Assembly: GCA_947632025.1 (NCBI GenBank) | Contig: CANRNN010000008.1 | Location: forward strand, 62,001 to 126,000 | Source: an uncultured Clostridia bacterium | GTDB lineage: Bacteria; Bacillota; Clostridia; Oscillospirales; Ruminococcaceae | Reading direction: 5' to 3' | Length of the DNA stretch: 64,000 bases | Part shown: piece by piece, positions 7,958 through 62,762 of the stretch | Layout of the letters: each line of letters starts with the position of its first letter | How positions within the stretch are numbered: position 1 is the stretch's first letter | The notes under the pieces: generated by a model | The model's input: only the letters and a program-made list of their open reading frames with translations | Databases searched by the model: none | Told to the model about the DNA's origin: nothing | Position numbers and translations under genes: made by a program

Positions 7958-8713
7958 ATGATCCAGATAAAGAATCCGACCGAGCTTAAGGGTATGATGA
8001 AAGCGGGCGAGCTTGCAGCGCAGGCTCTGGCGCTCGCGGGGAAGCACGCCGTGCCGGGGATCTCTACATGGGAGCTTGACAGGATCGTCAACGACTTCGT
8101 GGTTTCCAGAGGCGGTCATTCCCCCTGCAAAGGTTACGGGGGATTTCCCGGACATAACTGTTTTTCGGTAAACGAGGAGCTTATACACGGGATACCTTCC
8201 AAGAAAAAGATCCTGAAAGAAGGGGATATCCTTTCCTGCGACATCGTAGCCGAGCTTAACGGCTTTATGGGCGACAACACCAAGACCTTCAAGGTCGGAA
8301 AGGTATCCGAAGAGGCAGAACGGCTGCTGAAATTCACCGAAGAGGCACTCTATAAGGGAATCTCAATGGCAGTCGAGGGCAACCGCATAGGCGATATTTC
8401 TCACGCTATCCAAACACACGTGGAATCGGGCGGATACGCCTGCGCCGAGAAGTTCATCGGTCACGGGATAGGACGAGAAATGCACGAGGATCCGGAGGTC
8501 CCCAACGAGGGAAAGGCGGGTCACGGACCGAGATTGCTTGCGGGTATGACAATAGCCGTCGAGCCGATGGTAAATTCCCACTCAGGACGGGTGAATATCT
8601 TAGGCGACAAGTGGACGGTAGTAACGACGGACGGTAGCCTTTCCTGCCACTTCGAGCATACTATCGCCATCACGACGGGCGAACCCGTTATTTTGACATT
8701 GGAGAGCCACTGA
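7958..8713 (+). CDS. map: Type I methionine aminopeptidase
   Basis: M24 family sequence; adk-map order. Confidence 0.97.
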   Translation: MIQIKNPTELKGMMKAGELAAQALALAGKHAVPGISTWELDRIVNDFVVSRGGHSPCKGYGGFPGHNCFSVNEELIHGIPSKKKILKEGDILSCDIVAELNGFMGDNTKTFKVGKVSEEAERLLKFTEEALYKGISMAVEGNRIGDISHAIQTHVESGGYACAEKFIGHGIGREMHEDPEVPNEGKAGHGPRLLAGMTIAVEPMVNSHSGRVNILGDKWTVVTTDGSLSCHFEHTIAITTGEPVILTLESH

Positions 8714-8973
8714 TGGATATTCGCGTCGGAAGAGTGGTCATAAGCGCAGCAGGTCACGACAGCGGAAGATTTATGCTGGTGACAGGCGTTGAAAACGGCT
8801 TCATTTATGTAGCCGACGGGAAGGAGCGAAAGCTTTCTTCCCCGAAAAAAAAGAATATTCGGCACGTCCGTGCGACCAAGGGCTTTATAGAGCCTGAGGG
8901 ACTGACGGACAAAAGACTGCGGCAGACGCTGAGAGCGTTCGCCAACAGAAGCACTTCAGAGGAGAGTGAATAG
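8713..8973 (+). CDS. KOW-domain RNA-binding protein (L14e-like)
   Basis: [23 protein letters not shown]; position between map and infA. Confidence 0.85.
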
Positions 8974-51335: not shown

Positions 51336-52604
51336 CTATTTGTTGAATTTATCGAATAACTTTTGATAAAAAACGAATGGTTCTTTCCAGTCTTCATAAT
51401 ACTTCAAAATGACACTCATTGACGGAAGTCCCAATCTTGCAAGATCTTTTGCCGTTGGAATTCCTTTGCCTGATTTTACCTAATTTGCAACTGCGTCGTC
51501 AACTTCTTGTTTTGTGTATTTTGCCTTTTTACTGTTTTTTACTGTTATTCCATGTTTCGAGCAAAATACTGAAAATGAACCAAATCGTTTATGTATTGTA
51601 GAAGGCGAATATGGAAACAATTCAAAAAATTCCTTCATTGAATTGATTTCTCGTTTTTGTTCTCCGAAAAGATGATTTAAGGCATTTTCAATATCTTCTT
51701 CCGATATATATTCATTCTTTGTAGATATATCTGACCCGACAGCTTTTTGATAAGCAGCCAATGAACCAAAATAATTATATATTATTCGTGCTGTTGGCAG
51801 ATTGTTTTCTGCTCGCAAACAGCTTTCAGTGATTTTTCCATGCTTTTTTACATAGTCTTTTCCGGCTTGGATTACACTGTCAAAATCCCAGTTAGCTTGG
51901 ACTGATAAATGAAATAAATTCTTCTTTATATCTGTGAAACTTGTATACTCCGGATAGTGTTTTAATATGCAGGGAAGCGAGGGAAGGTTGTTTTTCTTAG
52001 TCAGATCCTTTTGCAATATATCTCCATGTTGCTCAATATACATTTCCAGTGCTGTTTTGATTGTATCCCTATTCCAATTGGCTGATAGATCCTCAATTCC
52101 AAAGGCTCTTTTTAGCGTGTGTAAATCACCATAGTATTTTTGAACATAATGAATCGAAGGCAGATGATTATATTCTCGACCAAAGTCAACTTTGTGGATA
52201 TCACCTTTTCGATCAATAAAACTTGATATAATTTGATCGAATTTATCTTTTGTCATTTCGTCCGTTTGTTTATTCGTATCTTCTGATAATTGAGTAGGAC
52301 TTATTACTTGTATTGCTGATTTTTCACTCTCGCCCATAAAGAATTGCTTAGCTTTTTCTTCCAACATAAAATCATGTAGTTCTTTATCTGTCTTTTTTAA
52401 GTTACAAGAAGTACAAAGAATCTGACAGTTTTCTGCGGTAGATTTCCCACCCTTAGCAAAAGGTAATATATGATCAAAATGACACTCTTGTATTGATGAA
52501 AGTTTTGTTCCACAAATGGCACAGCATATTTCGCCATTGTTTTTTCTAAGATTATCTTTTATTATACTAAGCTTGATAGAATCTGTAAAATCTCTTGCGC
52601 TCAT
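51336..52604 (-). pseudogene. HNH endonuclease with homing-endonuclease-associated repeats; frame interrupted by in-frame TAG at 51480-51482
   Basis: CCAICGTKLSSIQECHFDHILPFAKGGKS...CTSCNLKK HNH; frame continues after TAG as VKSGKGIPTAKDLARLGLPSMSVILKYYEDWKEPFVFYQKLFDKFNK*. Confidence 0.75.
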
Positions 52605-52801
52605 AATTCTCCTCCTCAAACTGTGTGATTGCGTTCATATAACATATCAAAACACATCAGCAATTTCATTTATAATTAGTATATCACATTGCTAAGAAAA
52701 TGTCAATAGTAACAAACGCACTCGTTAATAAAACGGCAAAATTTAAGACAAAAGACTTACACAGAGTTCTTTGTAAAATATAAATTCCTATTTGACACCA
52801 A

Positions 52802-52864: not shown

Positions 52865-52937
52865 GTTGCCAATAACCGCCTAAGCTAAAGCACGGCAAAA
52901 AATGTTGCCAAAACGTTGCCATTTTGCCGCTGGCAAC
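52865..52937. repeat. GTTGCCA repeat cluster (3 direct, 1 inverted); candidate arm-type integrase sites of an older element
   Basis: GTTGCCA at 52865, 52904, 52915; TGGCAAC at 52931-52937. Confidence 0.5.
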
Positions 52938-52980
52938 CCCACAAGACGCACCGTTAAGCCATTTGTTGAGGCGAATGAGT

Positions 52981-52991
52981 TATTCCCACTC
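52981..52991. repeat. Candidate att core (distal); duplicated guaA 3' end
   Basis: TATTCCCACTC; reverse complement encodes (T)-E-W-E-stop (ACC GAG TGG GAA TAA). Confidence 0.7.
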
Positions 52992-53053: not shown

Positions 53054-53115
53054 GACCGCATTTTGATTAAATTATCTATATTATTTATTTTTTTGAGGTC
53101 AAAATGCGGTCAAAA
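53054..53115. repeat. Distal-end arm-type repeats
   Basis: GACCGCATTTTGA (53054-53066, inverted) and GAGGTCAAAATGCGGTCAAAA (53095-53115, two copies 11 bp apart). Confidence 0.7.
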
Positions 53116-53138: not shown

Positions 53139-53903
53139 TTACGATTTTTCAATCCTATCTATAAATGATATTGTCGCTGACATAATTTTTACAACATATA
53201 CCGCTTCAGCATCATTAAGTATAGTATTATCGTGAGCGAAACTTTGATTGTTTCGTATAAAGTTAAAACTTTCAAATAATGAGATACTCATTTTTAGTGC
53301 TTCTTCGGTAAATTCTGACTGCAACATTCCTTCCTTTTTATAAAATTTTCTCAGCATACCGATAAGACTTTGTAACGAATAAAATTCACCTTTATCGTCG
53401 CATACAGAAATATTATGTTTGCCACAAGCTGATCTCACAAATTTAACCGCAAATGTATGGAGTCTATCCAAAACAAGGGCTGGCTCGTTTCGATTAAGTG
53501 CTTCATTTATATCGCGTGATAAAGTTTCTAAATCATCCTCTCGATTTTGCGGTAATGAGACATCTTCTAAACAATCTGATTCTCTTGGAATAAATGTAAT
53601 TTTTCTTGACACCAAACCTGCTTCTGGTTCAAAAAGTCTATTTATCCAATCTTCTAATGATTTAGACGCAGCTCTTAAATTTTTAATACTTCCTTCTGGA
53701 GCAAATATGGAAATGTCAACCGCATCTTTATCCCAAACATCACCACGTCTAACACCCGAATAATAAGCCCAACCGACATCGTTAAATTTTATTTTACACT
53801 CCAACAAAAGATTAGCTAGACTGATATTCCCATTCGCCTTTAATGTGGTTATCAATTTCGTCTTAAACTTTTCAGGATCCGGAATTTCGTGAGTATAATA
53901 CAT
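53139..53903 (-). CDS. Abortive-infection Abi_C/HEPN-like protein
   Basis: C-terminal LIGMLRKFYKKEGM...LFESFNFIRNNQSFAHDN (R-x6-H); ATG 53903 after AGGAGG. Confidence 0.75.
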   Translation of the reverse strand: MYYTHEIPDPEKFKTKLITTLKANGNISLANLLLECKIKFNDVGWAYYSGVRRGDVWDKDAVDISIFAPEGSIKNLRAASKSLEDWINRLFEPEAGLVSRKITFIPRESDCLEDVSLPQNREDDLETLSRDINEALNRNEPALVLDRLHTFAVKFVRSACGKHNISVCDDKGEFYSLQSLIGMLRKFYKKEGMLQSEFTEEALKMSISLFESFNFIRNNQSFAHDNTILNDAEAVYVVKIMSATISFIDRIEKS

Positions 53904-53922
53904 AGTGATTACCTCCTGATAT

Positions 53923-54945
53923 TCATTTGTCTTTATTAAAAAAAAGGCTCTTCGATGGAATCCAATCTTTTGCAACAGCGTCTGCCTTTTCAAGCCAACG
54001 TTCTATTCTCTTTTCAGGTGGAACGCTTTCTCCCCAATATTCAACAAACAAGGCATCGTCCATTCTTAATGCCGCTTCTTTCATATCTTCCTCAATAAGT
54101 TTGAGTGCTCGTTCAATATAGATGCCACCTTCGTCATCGTTTTGAGGATTAGCGACACTACCAGCAGAAAATAAATCTCGAGCTTGATGACACAATACAC
54201 CGTGATATGTAAGTAGATATAAAACCATATCATCATATTTTTTTCGTGAACGACCCGATTTTACAATGTCAGGGCAAAGCAAAGCGGCTTCGGCTCTCAA
54301 TTTTGTTTTTTCCTGTGGCGTGAGATTTGTATAAAGCCTTGCTTGTATGGGCGTAGTGTGTTCTTCCGAGCTACTGTCTTCAATCCACCATAAGCGACCA
54401 TCCGGGTGAATTTTTCTTGCATAGGCGCGTATATACTTCATTTTATCTTGCATATCTAACTTACGAAAATCATCATATTTTATACCCATCTGCTCAAACA
54501 GCGGCTCTTTCACAGGTGCTTTGTCAGATGGAAGTTCAACTTCGAAACGAGGAACGTGTGATGTTCTTACGTGTATAACACTTTTTTCATACTCGCCCCA
54601 ACGCACTTCGGGAATTCCGCCCATTTTTCCAAAAACAATGTAGATATGCTTTACTTCTTCTATACGTTGTGTTTCCAATACACTATTGGCGACGCTTCTC
54701 CAAGTGTCAGCTAATGTAAATTTAACTTCAACGCCATACTCCCCCATTGCAATATCAGGGAAAGCTTGCGGGTGTGGATTGAAGTCAATTTCAAACGAAG
54801 TGTTTCCTTTTGTCAAATTGCTTAACACTTCCCGAACACGGTTCTCAAAATCAGACGAAAGCTTAAACCCGCTTGTCCTTGCTTCATTAGTTAGTTGTTC
54901 GCAGCATATATTTAAAACTGTTTCAAAGTCATCTTTTGTCATCAT
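53923..54945 (-). CDS. Putative type II restriction endonuclease, PD-(D/E)XK
   Basis: FPDIAMGEYGVEVKFT; directly downstream of and overlapping the C5 methyltransferase. Confidence 0.8.
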   Translation of the reverse strand: MMTKDDFETVLNICCEQLTNEARTSGFKLSSDFENRVREVLSNLTKGNTSFEIDFNPHPQAFPDIAMGEYGVEVKFTLADTWRSVANSVLETQRIEEVKHIYIVFGKMGGIPEVRWGEYEKSVIHVRTSHVPRFEVELPSDKAPVKEPLFEQMGIKYDDFRKLDMQDKMKYIRAYARKIHPDGRLWWIEDSSSEEHTTPIQARLYTNLTPQEKTKLRAEAALLCPDIVKSGRSRKKYDDMVLYLLTYHGVLCHQARDLFSAGSVANPQNDDEGGIYIERALKLIEEDMKEAALRMDDALFVEYWGESVPPEKRIERWLEKADAVAKDWIPSKSLFFNKDK

Positions 54946-56032
54946 GTGCTCCTCTAATTACTTCTTTAACCGAATTTGCAATGTACCACGCAAAAACGGG
55001 TGGTACAGCATTGCCAATTTGTCGTTCTGTTTCTCTTAATCCACATTTAAATACGAAAGTATCAGGAAACGATTGAATGCGTGCTGCTTCTCGCATAGAA
55101 ATACGGCGGGGTAATTTATAATGAAATTGAATATTGCCATGACATTCTGCCCTCATAGTATATCCTGGTCTGTTTGCTATGAGTTTCCTGTTGCCCTGTT
55201 CACCACTTATGTTAGCCTTGCTCCAAATGTGAGAAAAATCCTTATCTGCTGGTAGTGTTTCAAGATCGCCGATAGCTTGTGCGGCAGTAACATAACTACT
55301 TTTATCACATATAGGCTTAGGGGGAACGAAATTTGGCAAATCCTTTCGCGTTCCTACAAAGATAACTCGTTCCCTTGTCTGTGGTACGCCGTAGTCAACA
55401 GTATTATAAAGTTGGTAGTTTATGGTATATCCCAGCGAGTTAAAATCGTTGAGTATAGTGTTTAATGAATACTCATTCTGTTTTAGCAACAAGCTGCCAA
55501 CGTTTTCGGCGACAAACACTTTAGGATTTGTTTTCCTTACTGCCTCAACAATATAGGTATATAAGCAACTTCTTTTGCCATTTATCCCTAACATCTTTCC
55601 ATTTATTGAAATGTCTTGACACGGAAATCCACCTATAATAACATCTGCATAATCTGGGATATCATCTATCATCATACTTATATCTCCCTCGACGATGTGG
55701 TTCCCAACATTATAACGATATGTATTGCACGCAGCTGGGCTAATTTCATTAGCCCAAATGATATCAAAATTGGTCTTGGCATAGTGCTTTCCCAAAAAAT
55801 CAAAACCTCCAATAAATCCCAAATCCATACCGCCGCAGCCAGAAAACAGGGATATGACAGTTAATCTTTTTTCAATATCCTTTTTAGGGACAGGATAACA
55901 CTCATTGTCATCAATAACCCAATTCCGTCCGATTTTTCGAGCGGTTGTAAAAGCACCACGCTCTGCATAACGTCGTACAGTATCACAACTTCTATTGTGC
56001 ATTTTTGCATATTCAGTTAATGAAATTAACAT
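54929..56032 (-). CDS. DNA (cytosine-5) methyltransferase with N-terminal HTH
   Basis: LTEYAKMHNRSCDTVRRYAERGAF HTH; SLFSGCGGMDLGF, GGFPCQDIS, AENV motifs. Confidence 0.95.
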   Translation of the reverse strand: MLISLTEYAKMHNRSCDTVRRYAERGAFTTARKIGRNWVIDDNECYPVPKKDIEKRLTVISLFSGCGGMDLGFIGGFDFLGKHYAKTNFDIIWANEISPAACNTYRYNVGNHIVEGDISMMIDDIPDYADVIIGGFPCQDISINGKMLGINGKRSCLYTYIVEAVRKTNPKVFVAENVGSLLLKQNEYSLNTILNDFNSLGYTINYQLYNTVDYGVPQTRERVIFVGTRKDLPNFVPPKPICDKSSYVTAAQAIGDLETLPADKDFSHIWSKANISGEQGNRKLIANRPGYTMRAECHGNIQFHYKLPRRISMREAARIQSFPDTFVFKCGLRETERQIGNAVPPVFAWYIANSVKEVIRGAHDDKR

Positions 56033-56060
56033 AGCAATACCACCTCATCCTCTATATTAT

Positions 56061-56089
56061 ATTATACACGATAGCGTGTATAATGTCAA
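56061..56089 (-). promoter_or_regulatory. SigA-type promoter of the methyltransferase overlapped by palindromic operator
   Basis: TTGACA(56089-56084)-17 bp-TATAAT(56066-56061); ATTATACACG-atag-CGTGTATAAT (56061-56084). Confidence 0.85.
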
Positions 56090-56159: not shown

Positions 56160-57479
56160 TCATAGCCTTTTTGCCTCTCTCGTCCTCTTTTGCAAAAACG
56201 CCCGCAACCTCTCTGCCAACCCCAGCCCCTCCACGAACTCCATAACCCTCTGAAACTTCGCCCTCAAGTTCCCAAGCTCGTTTTCAACCACGCGCAGCCG
56301 TTCTTTAAGCGAATAAATCTGCCGCGCGTTCCGTTCCAGAGCGGCGTATCTCTCAGCCGCCACCTCGGTTTCCTTTTTCAATCTTGCAACCTCGGCGGTC
56401 AAAGTCTCCTCCTTGTTTTCGGCGGCAATCTGCTTTTTAGCAAGCTCCGCAAGTTTCGCATAATCCTCTTTCGCCACCGTCAACTTCCCTCCGAAAACGG
56501 TCTTGCCCGTTTCGATGCCGTCAATCGCCCTGATTTGAGCAACTTTCTCCGCGCTCTCGTTCAGCAAAGTCTGGTTGTCGGCAAGCGCGGCAGACGTTTC
56601 GGCAAGCTCCTCGTCAAGCTGTCAGACTTGAGCGTTCTTCTCCTGAAATTGCTCGTCAAGCCGGTCGATAATCTCCTCAACCTGCGAGCGCATCTCCTCG
56701 CGGTGCTTTAAGAGTTTGTCGGCATACTCCGCTTTTTCATCAAGGAAAGCAACCTCTTTCTTCTTTTCGTCAACCTGTTCCGTCACCTTAGCGTACTCCT
56801 TGTACTGCTCCACCGTCAGACTACCGCGGGACTTTTCGGGCGCGGCAATTCGCACCCCGTGGCGACTGCAAATCTCGGTCAGCAGCTTGCATTCACTCTC
56901 CCGCCAACGCGCAATAGCGTCCTTGCCCGCACCGTAACCCATTTCTTTCAGAGCCTGCGCCAAGCCGTTCTGCGTGTCAACACCCTGCCTATAATGCCCG
57001 ACGGGTATGTAATCAATATGAAGATGAGGAGTTGCCTCGTCGAGGTGAAGTACCGCATTGAAAACAAAAAAATTCGGATTGCGAGCTTGAAAGCCTTGCA
57101 TATACTCGGTCAGGCAAGCTGCGGCGATTTCAGCGTCAGGCATTCCGACACCCGTGTCCTGCATTGTTCCAATCTGCACAACGTCCTCATAAAAACTCTT
57201 CCGCTTGTCCGCAGAAGTCACCACACTCTGCGAAATTTGTCGCTTGAAAACGTGTTCAAAATAGCTCGTGGTTATCTTTCGGTCAGTGCGTTTCTGCTTT
57301 ACATTGTATCGCTCAACCGCCGCCCCGAACAACTGCTCGTATGCTTTTTCAATAGGCTGTTGCACGAAAATAACATTGTCTTTCGTCCGCAAGCTGTCTA
57401 CATTTTTCGCACTAAATCTGCGGTTGTTGTGCGTTAGACTGCCCTTGCCCTGACAGTGGGAAATTCTTTTTTCAGTCAA
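56160..57479 (-). pseudogene. MobV/Pre-type relaxase, interrupted by in-frame TGA at 56622-56624
   Basis: LTHNNRRF and VLHLDEATPHLHIDYIPVGH motifs; TTG start with GGAGCGG; same frame continues ...KNAQV*QLDEELAETSAALADNQTLLNESAEKVAQIRAIDG. Confidence 0.82.
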
Positions 57480-57835: not shown

Positions 57836-59140
57836 TCAAGTTTTTATGAAAATCCCCTCAAACCCGCGAACGCGCCCCTGCGCCGTGCGAATGTTGTTGG
57901 AATGTCGCACGGAATACGCGCCCGCATTCGTCTTGAGCCAGCTTATAAAGCTGTCGCGTTTGAGGGCGGTCAAGCCGTTCTCCTCGCACCAATCCGTGTA
58001 GACGTTGTAGAGCAACTTGCTCGGCACAGCTTTGCTCTTGTCGAACCCGACAGCCTCTCCGAGAAACTCGATAATGTTGCAGTTTTCCGCAACCGCCTCG
58101 GCTAAATTTGCGCGAGTTTTTTCGCTTTCCGTGAACCGAAAATTGTTCTTTTTCAACCGCCGCAAACCGTCCAACAGCCAACAGAAAATCTGCTCCTTTT
58201 CGGCGATGAATTTCTCCGCGAGAAACGGGTCGTCAATGCGAGTGGCGGGTTTCGGCTTGGTGGTGAGTATAATCAAGCGGCGCGAAAATCCGTCAGATTT
58301 GTCGTACAAGGCTTTCGGAGAGCCGTTGCCGAAACACAAAAAACGGCTGTACACCCGCGCTTGCCGCGATTGTTTGCCCTTTGGCTCGACGTCAATCGGC
58401 ACTTCGGCGGTGATGATGTTCTTGATGTAACCCGTGGATTTCAGCGCGGTCATCTGCATATCGTCGTCGTTCAACAGCAGCTTGTCCACTAAATTACAGC
58501 GGAAAAATTTGTCGTCCTCAACGCGCTGAAAGTTGCCCGAGAGCATTGCCGAGCCGAAAATCTCGTTTAACACCACGCCAATCCTCGACTTCCCCTCGCC
58601 GCCGTTGCCGATGATAAACAACGCCTTTTGCGCCTTTGTCGAGGGGATTAAGCAGTAGCCGAGGAACTCTTGGAGCGTTAAAACGTCCTCGCTGTCGAGC
58701 AGCTCATAGAGGAACGCCTGAAAATTCGCAGGGTAATAAACGCGTTGCCAGATTTCGGGGTCGTAGCTTATATTCAGCCGATTTACGCAGAATTTCTTTT
58801 CGGGCGTGAACGTCGGCGGTTCGCCCTCTCGCCCGTCAACGCGGATAACGCCGTTCAGAACGTGGATTTCGTCCTCGCTCGGAGTTAGAGGTTCGGCGTG
58901 GCAGAACAGTTTCAACGCCTCGAACAGAGCCTTTGAACGGTTTGCAATGCCCGTTGTTATGCCGTTTTGGATAAGCAACTCGGATATTTTCGCGGTAATC
59001 TCGTCCGCCGACGCCGTCCCGTCCACCGAGTAGAACCTCCCCGCAATACACCGCAGTTCCCGCCCTCGGCAAAAGCTCTCGCAGAAAAGCGGCTCGTTTA
59101 TTTTCTTTTCGTCCGAGAGCCATTTGGGGGTGTCACTCAT
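57836..59140 (-). CDS. D5/P4-type SF3 helicase-primase
   Basis: FIIGNGGEGKSRIG Walker A; LLNDDDM; FLCFGNGSPKA. Confidence 0.88.
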   Translation of the reverse strand: MSDTPKWLSDEKKINEPLFCESFCRGRELRCIAGRFYSVDGTASADEITAKISELLIQNGITTGIANRSKALFEALKLFCHAEPLTPSEDEIHVLNGVIRVDGREGEPPTFTPEKKFCVNRLNISYDPEIWQRVYYPANFQAFLYELLDSEDVLTLQEFLGYCLIPSTKAQKALFIIGNGGEGKSRIGVVLNEIFGSAMLSGNFQRVEDDKFFRCNLVDKLLLNDDDMQMTALKSTGYIKNIITAEVPIDVEPKGKQSRQARVYSRFLCFGNGSPKALYDKSDGFSRRLIILTTKPKPATRIDDPFLAEKFIAEKEQIFCWLLDGLRRLKKNNFRFTESEKTRANLAEAVAENCNIIEFLGEAVGFDKSKAVPSKLLYNVYTDWCEENGLTALKRDSFISWLKTNAGAYSVRHSNNIRTAQGRVRGFEGIFIKT

Positions 59141-60209
59141 CGTCTTTGTTCTCCTTTTTCATAAGTTCTTCCAGCTTTGCCGACAGCTTTTCTTGCTTGT
59201 TGGGGTAAAGGTGCGCGTACACCTGCATAGTGGTTTCAACTCGCTCGTGTTCGAGCCGTTCGGCAATTTCAAGCGGCGGTATTCCAAGCTCGTACAACAG
59301 CGCGCAATGACTGTGCCGAACGTCGTGCAGTCTTATCCGCTTAACGCCGCTTTTCTCGCACCCGCGTTTCATTTCGTGGTGAAGATAATTTTTTGTGAAC
59401 GGGAATATCCTGTCGTTTTCGCCAACGCCGTAAAGGCTGTCGCAATACTCTTTAAGCAACTCGCACAGGAAGTCGGGAATAGATATAATGCGGTTGCTTT
59501 TGGGCGTTTTCGGCGGAGTGATAACGTCCCTGTCGCCGAGCCGCTGATAGGATTTGTTTACGGTAAGCGTTTTTGCCTTAAAATCAATGTCCGCGGGAGT
59601 GAGTGCCATAAGTTCGCCTATCCTTAACCCCGTCCAGAACAGCGTGTTAAACGCCGAGTAGGATATAGGCTTGTCCGCAATGCACTCCACAAACCGCTCA
59701 AACTCGTCCTTTGTCCAGAAATTCATTTCTTCAGCCTTGTTTTTGCCTATCGCTCCCGCCTTGGCGCAGGGGTTCGAGCGCAGGTCGTAGTACCTTACCG
59801 CATAGTTGAAGATTGCATTAAGCTGATTGTAAACGGTTTTCATATAGGTTTGAGAATACTCCCTCGACAGCATTTCGTTTTCCCACGCTATAATGTTCGC
59901 AGGGGTTATCTCGTTTATCTTCTTCGCGCCGAAATAAGGCAGAATTTTCAAATCCACTATGTAGTGTTTGGTACGCAGAGTGTTTTCCCGCAGGCGGGGA
60001 GAAATGCCGTTGAAGTACATCTGCGTAAAATCCGCAAATGTGATGTTCAAATCCGCTTTCTGTTCGGACAGGAACGTGCGCAGCCATTCCTCGGCGTCGT
60101 GCTTGGTTTCAAAGCCGCGTTTCATACTCTCCCTGCGCTTGCCTTGCCAGTCGGTATAGCGAAATCGTATGTACCATTTTCCCGTTTTTGCGTCTTTTTT
60201 CGCTCTCAT
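59133..60209 (-). CDS. Tyrosine site-specific integrase
   Basis: MRAKKDAKTGKWYIRFRYTDWQGK; LFWTGLRIGELMAL; RLHDVRHSHCALLYELGI; ATG 60209 overlaps the xis stop. Confidence 0.95.
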   Translation of the reverse strand: MRAKKDAKTGKWYIRFRYTDWQGKRRESMKRGFETKHDAEEWLRTFLSEQKADLNITFADFTQMYFNGISPRLRENTLRTKHYIVDLKILPYFGAKKINEITPANIIAWENEMLSREYSQTYMKTVYNQLNAIFNYAVRYYDLRSNPCAKAGAIGKNKAEEMNFWTKDEFERFVECIADKPISYSAFNTLFWTGLRIGELMALTPADIDFKAKTLTVNKSYQRLGDRDVITPPKTPKSNRIISIPDFLCELLKEYCDSLYGVGENDRIFPFTKNYLHHEMKRGCEKSGVKRIRLHDVRHSHCALLYELGIPPLEIAERLEHERVETTMQVYAHLYPNKQEKLSAKLEELMKKENKDDE

Positions 60210-60421
60210 TTTACATCGCTCCTTTCCACAGCACTTGAAAACCCGTAAAGGCATTTTTCAAGATACGCCCTCGGCAGCTTTCCCGCAATCGTGAGATAGC
60301 CTTGCTTTTTCAGTTCGGAGTTCATCTCGCGTATCAGCTTATAAGCGTGTCCGTTCGATACCCCCATAACCTTAGCCAACTCCGCCGCCGTGATGTAGAT
60401 ACTGTGATTTCTTATAAAAAT
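60206..60421 (-). CDS. Excisionase-like small HTH protein (not in ORF track; start codon uncertain)
   Basis: Read manually: IYITAAELAKVMGVSNGHAYKLIREMNSELKKQGYLTIAGKLPRAYLEKCLYGFSSAVERSDVK*; ATGA overlap with int. Confidence 0.75.
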   Translation of the reverse strand: MFIRNHSIYITAAELAKVMGVSNGHAYKLIREMNSELKKQGYLTIAGKLPRAYLEKCLYGFSSAVERSDVK

Positions 60422-60466: not shown

Positions 60467-61069
60467 ATGTCTGAAATAAAGTTTGGGGAGCGTATTCGCC
60501 AGGTTCGCAAAAACGCGGGGTGCAGTCAAAAGGAGTTTTGCGCCGCGCTTGATATACCGCAGTCCACGCTGTCGGCATATGAAACGGATCGTATGCAGCC
60601 GACGATTTCCTCGCTTGTAAAAATTGCCGAGAAATACAATGTGTCGCTTGACTGGCTTTGCGGTATAGAAAAATCCGCGCCGAGCTTCTGTACGATGGGC
60701 GAGGCTCTCGGCGCGGTTTATGATTTATCTGAAATCGAGGGGTTGGAGATTAAGTTTACCGTAAACGACCGCCTGCCCGATGATATTGAAACTCCCGAAA
60801 ACAGGTGGTTTGTGCAGATGACGGTTTACGGCAACGACAGTGAAAACCCGCAAAACGCCGACTTCTGCAAAGGTATACGACAGATAGCCGATAACATCAG
60901 CGACCTGGAGTCCTATTCCATATCCGCCGAAACCTACGAAACTGAAAAGGAAAAGGTTAAAAACTATTACGACAAGCCTCTGACCAAAAGGGATTTCCCC
61001 GCGCTTTCCCGCGAGGAACGCCAAAAGAAACACATCGAGTGGGTAAAACAGCATTTGAACGACGAATAA
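60467..61069 (+). CDS. XRE-family repressor
   Basis: FGERIRQVRKNAGCSQKEFCAALDIPQSTLSAYETDRMQPTI HTH_3; divergent from xis/int. Confidence 0.93.
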   Translation: MSEIKFGERIRQVRKNAGCSQKEFCAALDIPQSTLSAYETDRMQPTISSLVKIAEKYNVSLDWLCGIEKSAPSFCTMGEALGAVYDLSEIEGLEIKFTVNDRLPDDIETPENRWFVQMTVYGNDSENPQNADFCKGIRQIADNISDLESYSISAETYETEKEKVKNYYDKPLTKRDFPALSREERQKKHIEWVKQHLNDE

Positions 61070-61220: not shown

Positions 61221-62762
61221 CTACTCCCACTCAATCGTCGCGGGCGGTTTGCTTGTTATGTCGTAGACTACGCGGTTGATGCTCCCGACCTCGTTCACGA
61301 CGCGCACGGAAACCTTCTCCAGAACGTCATACGGTATCCGCGAGAAATCCGCTGTCATAAAATCTCCTGTCGTCACTCCGCGCAGCGCCAGCGTATAATC
61401 ATACGTCCGCCCGTCGCCCATAACTCCCACAGACCGCATATCCGTCAGCACCGCAAAATACTGACTTATCTCGCGGTCGAGTTTCGCGTTTGCTATCTCC
61501 TCACGGAATATCGCGTCCGCCTCCTGCAATATCGCTACCTTTTCCGGAGTAATTTCCCCTATGATCCGTATAGCAAGCCCCGGTCCCGGAAACGGCTGCC
61601 GCCAGACCAACTTTTCGTCCAGTCCGAGAGTTGTTCCCAATGCCCTAACTTCGTCCTTGAACAGCAATCTCAACGGCTCGATTATTTCCTTGAAATCCAC
61701 ATAATCCGGCAGCCCGCCCACGTTATGATGTGATTTTATTACCGCCGCGTCGCCTGCTCCCGATTCGATAACATCGGGATAGATAGTCCCTTGAACCAGA
61801 TAATCAACCTTGCCTATTTTCTTTGCTTCTTCCTCGAAAACGCGGATAAATTCCTCGCCGATTATCTTGCGCTTGCGCTCAGGCTCTGAAACTCCTTTCA
61901 GTTTTCCAAGGAATCTCTCGCCTGCGTTCACCCGAACGAAATTCACTCCCGAATCCGCAAACGCCGCTTCTACTTCGTCGCCCTCGTTCTTGCGCATAAG
62001 TCCCGTATCGACAAAGATGCAGGTAAGCTGAGAGCCGATAGCCTTCGCCAGCAGCTTGCACGCCACCGAGCTGTCCACGCCTCCCGACAGTGCCAGCAGA
62101 GCCTTTCCCGTTCCTACTTTTTCCCGTATCTCACGCACCGCTGTTTCGGCGTATCCTGCCATTGTCCAGTCGCCCTTGCATCCGCACACGTTGTACAGAA
62201 AATTCCCCAGCATATCAAAGCCCTGTTCCGTGTGGTTCACTTCAGGGTGGAATTGTGTTCCGTAGAATTTCTTTTCGGGATTTTCAATTGCTCCGAACGG
62301 ACATTTTGCGCTGTGACCTATTGCCCGAAATCCACGGGGCAGTGTTTCTATATAGTCGTTATGGCTCATCCACACGACCGATTTTTCGCGAAGTCCCTTG
62401 AACAAAAGCGAGTTTGTGTCGAATTCACATTCCGTCCTGCCGAATTCGGCGGCGGCGTTGTCGTTGGCTTTTCCTATTGTGCCGCCCAGACCGTACACCA
62501 TAAATTGTGCGCCGTAGCAAATGCCTAAAATAGGCACGCCCAGTTCAAAAATCTCCTTATCCATTCTCGGAGAATCGTCCAGATACACCGAATTCGGACC
62601 TCCCGTGAAAATGATCCCTTTCGGATTTAACGAACGTATTTCCTCTACAGGAGTTTTGTAAGACCGTACCTCGCAGTAGATCTTATGCTCGCGCACACGC
62701 CGTGCTATAAGTTGATTGTATTGTCCTCCGAAATCAAGGACTATTACAAGCTCGTGATCCAT
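61221..62762 (-). CDS. guaA: GMP synthase (glutamine-hydrolysing)
   Basis: [28 protein letters not shown]-like; C-terminal [10 protein letters not shown]. Confidence 0.98.
61222..61232. repeat. Candidate att core at guaA 3' end
   Basis: TACTCCCACTC overlapping IEWE-stop of guaA. Confidence 0.7.

Follow-up and report, generated by a model that had tools for sequence, protein, structure and literature searches.

The window is a stretch of 64,000 nucleotides from an uncultured Clostridia bacterium (contig CANRNN010000008.1). Three consecutive genes on its minus strand, spanning 53139-56032, encode a DNA methyltransferase (MTase), a restriction endonuclease (REase), and an Abi_C protein, in the order in which the initial annotation had read them. 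The genes, two conserved motifs of the Abi protein, and the sequences ahead of the MTase gene are as follows.

54929-56032, minus strand, C5 DNA methyltransferase with an N-terminal helix-turn-helix (HTH) (PF00145, E 6.4e-70)
53923-54945, minus strand, type II restriction endonuclease (PADLOC REase_II PDLC03508, 471 bits)
53139-53903, minus strand, Abi_C protein of 254 aa (PF14355, E 1.6e-8)
53454-53468, minus strand, DRLHT motif of the Abi protein, residues 146-150, second conserved block (50 homologues)
53232-53255, minus strand, R-x6-H motif RNNQSFAH of the Abi protein, residues 217-224 (R and H invariant, 50 homologues)
56061-56089, minus strand, sigma-70 promoter TTGACA-17-TATAAT (12/12 consensus match)
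56061-56084, palindrome ATTATACACG-ATAG-CGTGTATAAT over the promoter, putative operator of the HTH-MTase judging by sequence

The MTase gene runs 17 nt into the REase gene. Beginning 19 nt past the REase stop codon, the Abi gene starts with the ATG at 53903 and has an AGGAGG ribosome-binding site ahead of it; this overlap and the separate ribosome-binding site had both been described initially and were found as described. A 284-aa Abi open reading frame from 53993 was rejected as a mechanical 5' extension of the gene. The G+C content is 33.6% for the Abi gene and 39-40% for the two restriction-modification (R-M) genes. The presence of the genes, their domains, and their conserved motifs is far beyond chance.

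The first two genes had been taken for an HTH-C5 methyltransferase and a PD-(D/E)XK nuclease forming a restriction pair. This was borne out by the PF00145 and PDLC03508 matches and by the PD-(D/E)XK motif of the REase (54721-54759, minus strand), whose P-D-x8-E-x-K residues are invariant in four homologues. The HTH of the MTase is excisionase-like (Exc-like, residues 2-49; E 0.004, under the Pfam cut-off). The REase matched no Pfam family, and PDB sequence searches with it found no relative. Eight homologous REase loci were compared (L005, L006, L090, L101, and L103-L106; L090 is only 3.8 kb), and an MTase homologue lay close to the REase homologue in 8/8, the adjacent arrangement of type II R-M systems.

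The palindrome over the promoter has a single occurrence in the window, where 0.01 would be expected. When a looser form was sought in 185 loci, it was found on one further independent contig only, upstream of the HTH-bearing MTase of L101 (L102 is the same contig, present in the set as a second copy). Six further MTase homologues, whose similarity to the window MTase starts no earlier than about residue 46, past the HTH, lacked it upstream. No terminator-like sites were found between the three genes. Given the promoter, the distribution of the palindrome, and the lack of an intergenic terminator, the MTase, REase, and Abi genes are probably read as one transcript, and the HTH-MTase probably represses its own promoter.

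The Abi protein scored 34.9 bits against Abi_C PF14355 (gathering cut-off 24), and RNNQSFAH has the form of the HEPN motif, R-x4-6-H with a polar residue after R. Conservation of R-x6-H in homologues had been set beforehand as a test, and R217 and H224 were kept in 50/50 aligned homologues. N218, the polar residue, was invariant in the same alignment, as were D146, R147, and H149 of the second block. The AlphaFold2 model (pLDDT 84.8) has an alpha+beta N-terminal domain (about 1-115) and a HEPN-like helical C-terminal domain (about 120-254; helices 123-137, 141-162, 177-190, 197-219, and 231-253), in which R217 stands at a helix end and H224 in the loop beyond. When the model was run through Foldseek against PDB and viral models, no match reached significance, and the best HEPN fold match was 1o3u (E 0.29, TM-score by target 0.51). 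Since this match is so distant, the HEPN assignment leans mainly on the motif, and the Abi protein is a predicted effector that would cut RNA. The lack of a significant structural match would also suit a non-catalytic or decayed passenger, whose Abi_C domain is a nucleic-acid binder or no longer functional, but R217, H224, and D146/R147/H149 are all intact and do not vary across phyla, which leaves this reading very improbable.

The N-terminal domain had gone unrecognised in the initial annotation, and so it stayed: residues 1-115 had no significant structural match and, among named families, were compared with those of Pfam, where none matched. Matches of this domain to ribosomal eS7, RbfA, and OsmC-type proteins had E above 0.02 and were set aside. 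No relative was found by PDB sequence searches with the Abi protein or by a scan of viral contigs for its N-terminal domain by itself, and an hhalign profile comparison of Abi with a Ymh-like protein failed. The protein matches Abi_C alone; an ABC-ATPase plus HEPN architecture is absent. The commoner form of the Abi_C family has an all-helical N-terminal domain, and in a profile comparison with that form only residues 117-253 aligned, with 42% identity over the C-terminal 133 residues. Because the alignment is confined to this part, N-terminal domains have been swapped on one C-terminal core. An exchange of N-terminal domains is likewise reported for AbiJ (PMC3710099).

A separate observation concerns the C-terminal ends of the Abi_C homologues (L009-L088). 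An acidic tail closing in PF, such as WDDSIPF, FDDDIPF, or SDDLPF, ends 49 of the 77 complete homologues and resembles the SSB C-terminal tip DDDIPF. In its strict form the tail was present in 37/77 homologues versus 0/878 neighbouring ORFs. Most relatives with the other N-terminal domain carry a DD(D)[IL]PF tail, and the window protein has none. Pairwise identity was 50% in the last six residues versus 11% in the preceding linker. The tails end in LPF in Bacteroidota (15:1) and in IPF in Pseudomonadota (17:4), with a p of 6.7e-6 that does not correct for relatedness; SSB tails, obtained from 15/16 host genomes, showed the same LPF/IPF split in most cases. Literature searches gave no report of an SSB-like tail on Abi_C proteins.

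The three genes lie in an element of 8.24 kb at the 3' end of guaA, bounded by cores at 52981 and 61222. It contains an Xre regulator, an integrase, a replication protein, a relaxase, and the MTase, REase, and Abi genes. Its remaining features are listed below.

52981-52991, left att core TATTCCCACTC, repeating the guaA 3' end (matched by the 61222-61232 core and by paired cores of L149, L187, L189, and L190)
56160-57479, minus strand, Mob_Pre relaxase gene, interrupted (PF01076)
56622-56624, minus strand, in-frame TGA in the relaxase gene, past the Mob_Pre domain
57836-59140, minus strand, replication protein, DUF5906 / D5-like ATPase
59133-60254, minus strand, tyrosine integrase of the element (PF00589)
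60467-61069, plus strand, Xre-type regulator at the element's right end (four sister elements, 74-77% identity)
61222-61232, right att core TACTCCCACTC, overlapping the last guaA codons
61221-62762, minus strand, guaA

Read in guaA orientation, the core T[AT][CT]TCCCACTC gives the last GuaA residues and the stop codon. In G035, G018, and G024 an integrase with 82-86% identity is found next to guaA, and in G015 one is found next to a matching att stretch. The cargo had been placed on a mobilizable element. An integrative element with an integrase and att cores is indeed present, but its relaxase gene is not intact, carrying the TGA at 56622-56624. Conserved recoding at this stop was ruled out, as a sense codon occupies this position in the relaxase homologues of L149, L150, and L151. 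Owing to the in-frame stop, the element's own mobilization may be impaired. A GCGGTCAAA repeat at 53094/61144 had been considered as the element boundary and was replaced by the guaA att core. An HNH gene at 51480-52619 was excluded as a fourth member because it lies outside the element; its product is encoded at low G+C and has homing-endonuclease-associated repeats, and related HNH genes occur in L187 and L189. The 92 bp left of the element (52900-52991) match sequence that follows guaA directly in other members of the genus, which suggests a possible decayed second element in tandem.

Four complete sister elements with paired cores occupy the same site.

6218-16788 in L149, carrying a C5 MTase, an NgoBV endonuclease (PF09564, 470 bits), and an AAA_13 protein with a PrrC match (E 7.8e-12)
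4322-14309 in L187, carrying an EcoRI-type MTase, a GmrSD_N/HNH endonuclease, a zinc-ribbon protein, and PDC-M14B
6732-14256 in L189, carrying a chloramphenicol acetyltransferase and an HNH protein
2724-16479 in L190, carrying Vsr, C5 MTases, and a GHKL ATPase matching REase_II

With the window element included, R-M-type genes were present in 4/5 complete elements, and three of those four have a further defence-type gene at the end away from guaA. R-M together with an accessory gene recurs in the sister elements, and this may also reflect selection for coupling. On another reading, the guaA-site elements of the genus would be a standard cassette: a type II R-M pair and, behind it at the end away from guaA, a suicide effector that can be swapped (Abi_C in the window, PrrC-like in L149, PDC-M14B in L187), each effector being favoured by selection as a guard or backup of whichever R-M pair it follows; we think this rather unlikely.

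Whether Abi belongs with the R-M pair was examined from both sides; absence of the Abi gene from homologous R-M loci had been named beforehand as a refutation of the layered system. An Abi homologue was found at 0/8 of the homologous REase loci (tblastn E 1e-3), so that the conserved effector/R-M linkage of the PrrC/PrrI kind is lacking there. Four intact relatives share the N-terminal domain of the window protein (L008, L009, L010, and L091; L017 is a frameshifted copy of L008), and no identified R-M pair stands beside any of them. The L008 gene is in another integrative element, at a distance of about 5 kb from a DNA methylase gene, and the L009 gene begins 15 bp after a RES-domain gene. In L010 the Abi_C gene (8043-8741) lies in an Allobaculum prophage, between a tape-measure-sized gene and the next tail gene. 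The L091 protein, a full-length homologue with 43% identity, is encoded in Ruminococcus phage NatCom_2329, immediately before the large terminase gene and several genes downstream of a phage DNA methyltransferase gene.

The two phage neighbourhoods would suit superinfection exclusion of a phage type, with Abi as phage-derived cargo that protects the element or its host from specific phages and is functionally unrelated to R-M. However, Abi is joined to the REase gene by the promoterless 19-nt junction, and bacterial contigs account for most of the Abi_C relatives found; we give this explanation only a small chance of being right.

A broader survey of the family gave a different picture of linkage. 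Among 74 Abi_C loci taken from a genome scan, a gene with MTase motifs was in the same operon within three genes at 14/74, and the per-gene rate was 14/82 versus 4/200 in the background (odds ratio 10, p 1.4e-5), figures that are approximate because the enrichment is motif-based. L012 and L092 each have the Abi_C gene placed between the mod and res genes of a type III system. The family thus turns up often in R-M operons, but with the 0/8 and 0/4 linkage these three genes are no conserved team. The initial proposal that they form one evolved system was not supported by these two counts.

A dedicated guard of the PrrC/PrrI kind was weighed on the same evidence. The R-M proteins would hold the Abi RNase inactive, and a phage that inhibits or overwhelms restriction would free it. 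The operon arrangement, the enrichment of Abi_C in R-M operons, the type III cases, and the C5 MTase, NgoBV REase, and PrrC-like protein of L149 at the same cargo position all speak for such a guard, as does the HEPN-R-M coupling proposed earlier (PMC3710099). The empty counts at homologous R-M pairs and same-N-terminus relatives, together with the lower G+C of the Abi gene, speak against it, and a guard seems improbable here. On balance, stacking by co-expression is better supported than a dedicated guard.

The locus is probably a case of modular stacking, in which a free-standing abortive RNase sits on the R-M operon of an integrative (formerly or conditionally mobilizable) guaA-site element. 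The C5 methyltransferase would protect host sites, and its helix-turn-helix would bind the promoter palindrome and shut down its own expression. The PD-(D/E)XK enzyme would cut incoming unmodified DNA. Abi_C would be read off the same transcript via its own strong ribosome-binding site; its N-terminal domain may sense an infection cue, upon which the HEPN-like C-terminal domain would cleave RNA and stop the cell. Abi would thereby act as a second layer through co-expression, with no dedicated physical link to the R-M pair. For this locus we infer co-transcription, autorepression, RNase activity, a trigger, and phage defence; restriction failure is a possible trigger of Abi.

Such a locus is a natural case for asking whether R-M systems and abortive effectors co-travel by functional coupling or by simple stacking, and sister elements at one site serve as replicates with different parts. 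The Abi protein offers an N-terminal domain with no Pfam match on a HEPN-like core.

Type II R-M systems with an HTH-fused, self-regulating C5 methyltransferase, such as M.SsoII and M.EcoRII, are known; the window MTase is also HTH-fused with a palindrome over its promoter, and its repression is putative. In PrrC-PrrI, the anticodon-nuclease guard, a restriction system and a predicted HEPN RNase likewise share one locus, but PrrI is type Ic and the window system type II, the window Abi protein has no ABC ATPase domain, and physical coupling is not indicated for the window locus as read from its sequence. Compared with the common form of Abi_C PF14355, the window protein has another N-terminal domain and no SSB-like tail. 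GIsul2 and other guaA-site islands also have a tyrosine integrase and an att site at the guaA 3' end (PMC9376610); the window cargo is unrelated to that of GIsul2, and the window relaxase gene has an in-frame stop. Suicide proteins, HEPN or other, have been proposed as a backup of immune systems such as R-M by Anantharaman et al., 2013 (PMC3710099) and Makarova et al., 2012 (PMC3506569). The window protein shares with the R-M-linked HEPN proteins, AbiJ with its exchangeable N-terminal domains among them (PMC3710099), the R-x6-H motif, the polar residue after R, a C-terminal toxin-like domain, an interchangeable N-terminal domain, and an R-M neighbourhood. Its alpha+beta N-terminal domain, which may differ from AbiJ-NTD1 to 5, has no Pfam match, and its linkage to its own R-M pair is not conserved. 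To the HEPN/R-M stacking already proposed, the locus adds an N-terminal domain outside Pfam, carried on a guaA-site element.
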